Assembly: GCA_903829945.1 (NCBI GenBank)
Contig: CAIKRV010000011.1
Location: forward strand, 78,255 to 112,440
Length of the DNA: 34,186 nucleotides
Source of the DNA: an uncultured bacterium
Lineage (GTDB): Bacteria; Bacteroidota; Bacteroidia; CAILMK01
Direction of reading: 5' to 3'
Part shown: one piece after another, positions 9,327 through 29,511 of the stretch
Layout of the letters: every line of letters starts with the position of its first letter
How positions within the stretch are numbered: the first letter of the stretch is position 1
The notes under the pieces: model-generated
Told to the model about the DNA's origin: nothing
What the model saw: only the letters and a program-made list of their open reading frames with translations
Databases searched by the model: none
Made by a program: the position numbers and the translations under genes

Positions 9327-9902
9327 TTATTTAGCTTTTGCTAATTCAACATTGCAATTTATTTCAACATTATCACTTACTACAGCTCCGGCTTCCACCA
9401 TTTTGCTCCAATTTAAACCGAAGTCTTTGCGGTTAATTTTACCGGCAACTTTAAAGCCTGCCTTTTCAGCTCCTTGCATATCTTTAACGGTACCGTTATA
9501 ATTCATATCCAAAGTAACAGATTTGGTTTTATCACGCATGGTTAAATCACCGGTAAGTTTATAATGCTTTGCATCAAGCTTTTTAATGCCTGTGCTTACA
9601 AATGAAACTTTAGGGAATTTTTCAGCATTGAAAAAGTCATCACTTTTCAAATGCTTATCTCTCATTTCGTTTCCTGTGTTTATAGAATTAGTTTCAGCAC
9701 TGAACTGGATTTTTGCATCAGTAAAATCAGCTTTGTTAGCGGTAGCACTTATTTCATATTTATCAAATTGACCTTCTACCTCGTTAATCATCATATGGGT
9801 AACGGTAAAGCCAATTTTAGAGTGATAAGTTTCTGCTTTCCATTCACTTACTCCAGCGGGTTTGAATGCCAATAAGGCTAAGGTAATTATTAACTTTTTC
9901 AT
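9327..9902 (-). CDS. YceI-family periplasmic lipocalin-like protein
   Basis: About 191 residues from the ATG at 9902. This start puts MKKLIITLALLAF, a signal peptide, at the N-terminus; an in-frame TTG at 9926 would add eight residues in front and lies inside the -7 box region, so it is unlikely. The mature part has the YceI pattern: an opening strand with HSKIGFTVTHMMINEVEGQF, then DKHLKSDDFFNAEKFPKVSFVS, then LTGDLTMRDKTKSVTLD, and KINRKDFGLNW near the end. YceI proteins form a lipocalin-like barrel that binds polyisoprenoid or amphiphilic ligands in the periplasm; the ligand here is unknown. A perfect 12-bp-arm palindrome lies immediately upstream of its -7 box, so the gene is probably repressor-controlled. 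The same palindrome arms occur before the dioxygenase gene at 29538. Confidence 0.9.
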   Translation of the reverse strand: MKKLIITLALLAFKPAGVSEWKAETYHSKIGFTVTHMMINEVEGQFDKYEISATANKADFTDAKIQFSAETNSINTGNEMRDKHLKSDDFFNAEKFPKVSFVSTGIKKLDAKHYKLTGDLTMRDKTKSVTLDMNYNGTVKDMQGAEKAGFKVAGKINRKDFGLNWSKMVEAGAVVSDNVEINCNVELAKAK

Positions 9903-9922: not shown

Positions 9923-9930
9923 ACAAAGAT
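9923..9930 (-). promoter_or_regulatory. -7 box of the yceI-like promoter
   Basis: TATCTTTG on the minus strand fully matches TAnnTTTG, about 20 bases before the chosen ATG. The region where the -33 box should be is occupied by the palindromic operator. Confidence 0.5.
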
Positions 9931-9933
9931 ACA

Positions 9934-9959
9934 ACATTATATGTACATACATATAATGT
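9934..9959. promoter_or_regulatory. Perfect palindromic operator upstream of the yceI-like gene
   Basis: Two 12-base arms (ACATTATATGTA and its exact complement) flank a 2-base centre CA. The site lies directly behind the -7 box, where a bound dimeric repressor would block RNA polymerase. The inner 9-base arm TTATATGTA recurs, with the same 2-base spacing, at 29512-29531. The regulator is not encoded in this window; a MarR- or HxlR-type protein is a guess from site architecture. Confidence 0.65.
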
Positions 9960-16499: not shown

Positions 16500-16853
16500 A
16501 TGAAAAAGTTAACCTTATTAGTTGCTCTTACCTTCAGCTTAACCACAGTTTTTGCACAAACAAAAACTACAAAAACTGACAAAGCAGCACCGGCTACACA
16601 AAAGCCTGCTGCTACAACCAATGCTAAAGCAGCTCCTGCAAAAGCAAATCCATCATCCAAAGTTGAAACTAAAACTGCAAATGCCGGAAAAGTATTTTGT
16701 TGTGATAGTAAAACTGCTACCGTATATCATAATAGCCAAACATGCACAGGAGCAAAAAAATGTACCGGCGCTATGAAAGAAATGACTAAAGCTGATGCTG
16801 AGAAAGCAGGTAAAAAACCTTGCAAACTTTGTGAAAAAGTAGCTGCAAACTAA
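16500..16853 (+). CDS. Small exported protein with Lys/Ala/Thr-rich linker and Cys-rich C-terminal domain
   Basis: The 117-residue product starts with a signal peptide ending TTVFAQ. Residues about 20-62 are a low-complexity Lys/Ala/Pro/Thr linker. The C-terminal part (about 64-114) has paired cysteines (FCCDS, YHNSQTCTGAKKCTG, GKKPCKLCEK). The arrangement resembles small zinc-binding modules of the Ada-like or nuclease-tail type (YH..C....A...G..PC..C), where four cysteines or cysteine/histidine residues bind metal. It may bind metal or be disulfide-bonded in the periplasm; enzymatic function is not evident. The gene is monocistronic, with a candidate sigma-54 promoter upstream and a long palindromic terminator directly downstream that is shared with the converging operon. 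Confidence 0.75.
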   Translation: MKKLTLLVALTFSLTTVFAQTKTTKTDKAAPATQKPAATTNAKAAPAKANPSSKVETKTANAGKVFCCDSKTATVYHNSQTCTGAKKCTGAMKEMTKADAEKAGKKPCKLCEKVAAN

Positions 16854-29393: not shown

Positions 29394-29511
29394 TATTCAT
29401 GTTAATACAATATTTATTTTTAAAAAAATGTTAGAACTAATCATGTGTATCTCATTTTTATTTAGATTCGTTTATAATACCTTTTATTGAAACGAAAATC
29501 AAATAACATTG

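Follow-up and report, generated by a model that had tools for sequence, protein, structure and literature searches.

Although YceI lipocalins occur widely, little is understood of their physiological role or of the proteins that regulate them. Repressors of the thiol-sensing OhrR/SarZ type have a MarR fold and use palindromic, AT-rich operators. In Staphylococcus aureus and Bacillus subtilis, MhqR is a MarR-type quinone repressor that senses quinones without the need of a thiol (PMC6798810, PMC12893000). BcnA/LcoA of Burkholderia cenocepacia is a stress-induced YceI lipocalin, and members of the family bind ubiquinone-8 (PMC9113575). No published description of a MarR-YceI(-pirin) regulon in Bacteroidota was found in the open-access literature. 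The palindrome described here, probably a conserved MarR operator, links YceI to quinone/aromatic redox enzymes in this phylum, and gives a candidate regulator, an operator and testable inducers.

The window, i.e. the whole stretch of 34,186 nucleotides that was analysed, contains the palindrome TTATATGTA-N2-TACATATAA twice with exact arms, once at a yceI gene and once at a ligB/DODA-type dioxygenase gene (Table 1). Both copies and their positions, one next to a -7 box and the other just ahead of a start codon, are as described in an earlier sequence-only reading of this DNA. That reading also proposed a scan for the 20-base pattern, and in the whole 2.9-Mb genome the scan returned these two exact copies and no others. 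Shuffled windows contain on average 0.14 matches to the palindrome, even with up to 3 mismatches. The copy at yceI is a perfect palindrome of 12+2+12 nucleotides, while the ligB copy has only the 9+2+9 core in common with it and does not extend past the 9-base arms. Translation of yceI begins with the ATG at 9902 and not with the TTG further upstream that opens the mechanically called ORF. The operator lies upstream of TATCTTTG, a -7 box of the Bacteroidota type, with a gap of 5 bp, and this is the placement expected for repression. Operator and -7 box are spaced equally within 1 bp at yceI and at an FMN reductase gene of the same genome (operator 5-6 bp upstream of the box in both), and at yceI of a second genome of the genus, G001. 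At ligB, no clear -7 box was seen downstream of the operator. If the weak box upstream of it is real, repression there could possibly, though uncertainly, act as a roadblock. Elsewhere in the window, a 117-aa ORF at 16500-16853 has a sub-threshold match to a DddA-like deaminase (E=5e-4).

Table 1. Predicted operators, promoter elements and target genes in the window.
Feature	Position	Strand	Remark
Operator 1, ACATTATATGTA-CA-TACATATAATGT	9934..9959	none	Common core 9937-9956; between yceI -33 region and -7 box
yceI promoter -7 box TATCTTTG, Bacteroidota type	9924..9931	-	Spacing to operator kept within 1 bp at FMN reductase gene and at yceI of G001
yceI, lipocalin-like YceI protein with N-terminal signal-like stretch	9327..9902	-	Pfam PF04264, E=4e-48
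Operator 2, TTATATGTA-GG-TACATATAA	29512..29531	none	6 bp ahead of ligB ATG
Possible weak -7 box TACCTTTT, upstream of operator 2	29478..29485	+	One mismatch to TAnnTTTG; uncertain
ligB/DODA-type extradiol dioxygenase gene, 298 aa	29538..30434	+	Pfam PF02900, E=1e-22

When up to 2 mismatches are allowed, the genome contains six sites compared to two for the reversed pattern, a difference that is not significant alone (p=0.14). Their positions are more telling. Five of these six sites come within 84 bp of the gene that follows them, and the genes in question are yceI and ligB, one for an NADPH-FMN reductase (PF03358), one for a bacilliredoxin (PF06491) and a further yceI. A motif spread at random through coding and non-coding DNA, which the sequence-only reading had named as evidence against a regulon, is thus not what was found, as five of the six sites precede redox or lipocalin genes. 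There are four YceI genes in the genome, and the two more distant paralogues are without a site. At 3 mismatches the palindrome has 16 matches, many of them intragenic, and the reversed control has 12; because the counts come this near to the control, this tail is probably mostly chance. One candidate, at C78:79552 and 157 bp ahead of the gene for a large secreted protein, was rejected as probably a chance match.

Similar sites are found in other genomes. Among 40 relatives, sites with at most 2 mismatches stand repeatedly ahead of YceI genes (L031, L033, L035, L037, L040), and also ahead of a MarR gene of about 149 aa (L029, L034, L039, L042). For a class-wide count a strict pattern was used, TTAWATGTANNTACATWTAA, where W is permitted at one position per arm. 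Across 395 genomes of the class it has 17 matches in 15 genomes, and the reversed control has 2 (p=0.0004). All 17 are in promoters: eight belong to MarR genes, five to YceI genes and two to LigB genes, and the last two to a nitroreductase gene and a UbiA/type III polyketide synthase pair. Behind the eight MarR promoters YceI comes next in at least four cases, with LigB added in two of these; one of the eight is broken by the contig end but reads MKLEEELKQGKFQSEHQKAMLNILFTSN. The MarR clade is present in all 15 genomes with a strict site, compared to 262 of the 395 overall (p=0.002). MarR-YceI-LigB operons also occur among the relatives, and in L193 MarR, YceI, FMN reductase and LigB stand in one row.

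Not all targets are equally conserved. Within 30 LigB loci, only those of this genome and of L170 have a site with at most 2 mismatches just upstream, and none of the bacilliredoxin and FMN reductase relatives that were examined has a conserved upstream site. Since sites are rare or absent upstream of the relatives' genes, the predicted membership of LigB, FMN reductase and bacilliredoxin is lineage-specific. Three further loci are worth describing. In L297 (1573-3201) a strict operator precedes a pair of genes, the first for a UbiA prenyltransferase and the second for a type III polyketide synthase, which suggests that this species regulates the synthesis of phenolic lipids or quinones in this way. 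In L013 (2992-3639) the site TTAACTGTACGTACATTTAA is located 72 bp ahead of the gene for a 192-aa protein that has no Pfam match and contains repeated GRPRK-like motifs. In L054 (1497-2643) the site ATTAATGTATATACATTTAA is found about 150 bp ahead of a gene that, judged by eye and not by Pfam, resembles a Gfo/Idh/MocA oxidoreductase.

A link to a regulator comes from the MarR clade itself, sampled at 80 loci with 300 bp of upstream sequence each. At up to 3 mismatches the palindrome is found in 27 of 80 MarR upstreams and in 0 of 1393 control windows from the same loci; at up to 4 mismatches the numbers are 37 of 80 and 21 of 1393. About half of the MarR orthologues are without a recognisable upstream site. 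In an unbiased count of 5+5 palindromes ATGTA-N2-TACAT ranks first, with 17 of 80 MarR upstreams against 4 of 400 control windows. Outside the called MarR upstreams only five more sites occur in 622 kb, two ahead of YceI and three ahead of MarR genes that had escaped the ORF caller or been given a wrong start. The 37 MarR upstream sites have the consensus TTAWATGTATATACATATAW, in which T at positions 2 and 6 and ACA at 13-15 are invariant. Of 78 loci, 45 have YceI close to MarR, mostly directly downstream, and 18 have pirin. At L079, L083, L116 and other MarR loci a third half-site, TTGTACATTAAATGTATGTACATATATTTG, is often seen ahead of the operator, and ACATT-N1-AATGT ranks second among the palindromes upstream of MarR; together these are possibly a double operator.

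An AT-rich genome such as this one, with its small excess over the control at 3 mismatches, might be expected to produce palindromes that recur by chance, or the palindrome could be a repeat element. We hold this to be very improbable. The strong sites gather in the promoters of a few families, and the class-wide and MarR upstream counts refute chance recurrence, which the sequence-only reading had already thought unlikely for both arms. An origin as a REP, terminator or transposon was set aside since the strong sites stand singly in promoters.

Both palindromes are very probably binding sites of one MarR-family repressor, and in this genome the regulator is most likely the MarR encoded outside the window at G000:C84:1639-2082. 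This protein of 148 aa is 45-51% identical to the relatives' MarR and has a MarR winged-helix domain (PF12802 and PF01047, both above cut-off). A site ahead of a MarR/HxlR-type gene had been predicted, and this turned out to be correct for many of the MarR relatives but not for the genome's own gene, which has no operator upstream and directly follows an M16 peptidase gene. In G001 (78% complete) yceI has a site, and a search for MarR at E<=1e-20 found none. The HxlR genes and the other MarR genes of the genome were rejected as regulators, as no good site is nearby; for both HxlR genes this applies within about 1.5 kb. It could still be argued that operator and regulon are as described and that the binder is an HxlR protein or the C78 MarR, a second MarR whose gene lies in a TolC-EmrA-EmrB-like operon. 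At the -7 box of the C78 MarR gene itself there is a half-site, ATATATGTACTAACTTTG (L020:1350-3183), and the protein is 34% identical to the C84 MarR, whose gene is the one without an operator. However, in relatives every MarR gene found behind a strong site is of the C84 type, and the helix region reads DRNSDITR in C78 compared to DKNSNASR, nearly invariant among orthologues of the C84 type. We therefore consider another binder improbable.

On balance, we are confident that a conserved Bacteroidota MarR repressor, here the C84 protein, controls this target set from the predicted operator by blocking transcription, and would be released by a ligand, most likely a quinone or aromatic compound. 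At the level of sequence, the operator, its targets, the tie to the MarR clade and the promoter geometry support this, and an operator between -33 and -7 together with autoregulatory sites looks like the geometry of a MarR repressor. Repression, the ligand and C84 as the binder are what we infer. A MarR dimer would bind ATGTA-N2-TACAT, which at yceI and the FMN reductase gene lies between the -33 region and the -7 box and at ligB beside the start codon, and would stop transcription there. A small molecule, for which a quinone or another aromatic electrophile is the most likely candidate, would then free MarR from the DNA. The cell would make YceI, which would bind lipophilic isoprenoid quinones, as well as the NADPH-FMN/quinone reductase, the LigB ring-opening dioxygenase and bacilliredoxin. 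The nature of the inducer is a best guess from the target genes, because these reduce flavin or quinones, open aromatic rings and repair thiols, and YceI relatives hold ubiquinone-8.

How the signal is sensed may differ between species. The C84 MarR is cysteine-free, so direct thiol oxidation is excluded in this genome, and sensing would take place via ligand binding or indirectly. Wing position 96 is Cys in 60 of 81 orthologues and Ser in the protein studied here. It is possible that this residue splits the orthologues into thiol-assisted and pure ligand sensing, and those with Cys96 could add a thiol switch in other species. A regulon that responds to general oxidative or lipid-radical stress, and not to quinones or aromatics, is conceivable though we rather doubt it. 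This has been reported for BcnA, which guards against lipid peroxyl radicals and whose gene responds to superoxide stress (PMC9113575). Bacilliredoxin, a thiol-repair protein, and the wing cysteine of most orthologues would fit such a response, whereas proteins such as LigB, pirin/quercetinase, FMN reductase and nitroreductase typically deal with aromatics or quinones, and the absence of cysteine argues against it here.

Returning to the quinone- or aromatic-responsive MarR regulon, the sequence-only reading had joined a YceI lipocalin and a LigB/DODA-type enzyme. The genome-wide and class-wide sites support this and extend it, with FMN reductase, bacilliredoxin and a second YceI in this genome, and pirin, nitroreductase and UbiA/polyketide synthase in relatives. 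As a tentative extension, which we would not yet count on, this may be a Bacteroidota-wide quinone/phenolic-lipid defence regulon where MarR senses quinone directly, exported YceI acts as carrier of isoprenoid quinones next to cytoplasmic reductases and the dioxygenase, and in some species MarR also controls a UbiA-type III polyketide synthase pathway for phenolic lipids. In practical terms, PyceI can be used as a reporter, and the 20-bp motif for annotating target genes in any Bacteroidota genome.

Compared to the known systems, the OhrR/SarZ repressors share the MarR fold and the AT-rich palindromic operator, and differ in their reactive cysteine, as the MarR described here has none. BcnA/LcoA is likewise a YceI-family lipocalin and is stress-induced, but its gene lies beside a cytochrome b561 gene, and no MarR regulator is named in the text of that paper, (PMC9113575); here yceI shares a predicted MarR regulon with genes for reductases and for a ring-opening dioxygenase. 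MhqR is also a MarR-fold repressor with a 9-9 palindrome at the promoters of a ring-cleavage dioxygenase, a quinone reductase and a nitroreductase (PMC6798810, PMC12893000); the comparable targets are LigB and FMN reductase here, and nitroreductase in a relative. The operator differs, as that of MhqR is TATCTCGAA-aTCGAaATA (PMC6798810). The S. aureus MhqR (9QDR) is also distant from the C84-type MarR (E=1e-4) and ranks after five other MarR chains. The dioxygenase here is of the LigB family, a different family from that of MhqE, and YceI, bacilliredoxin and pirin are additional. The system would thus work like MhqR and yet not be MhqR, with another operator, a distant sequence and partly different enzymes.
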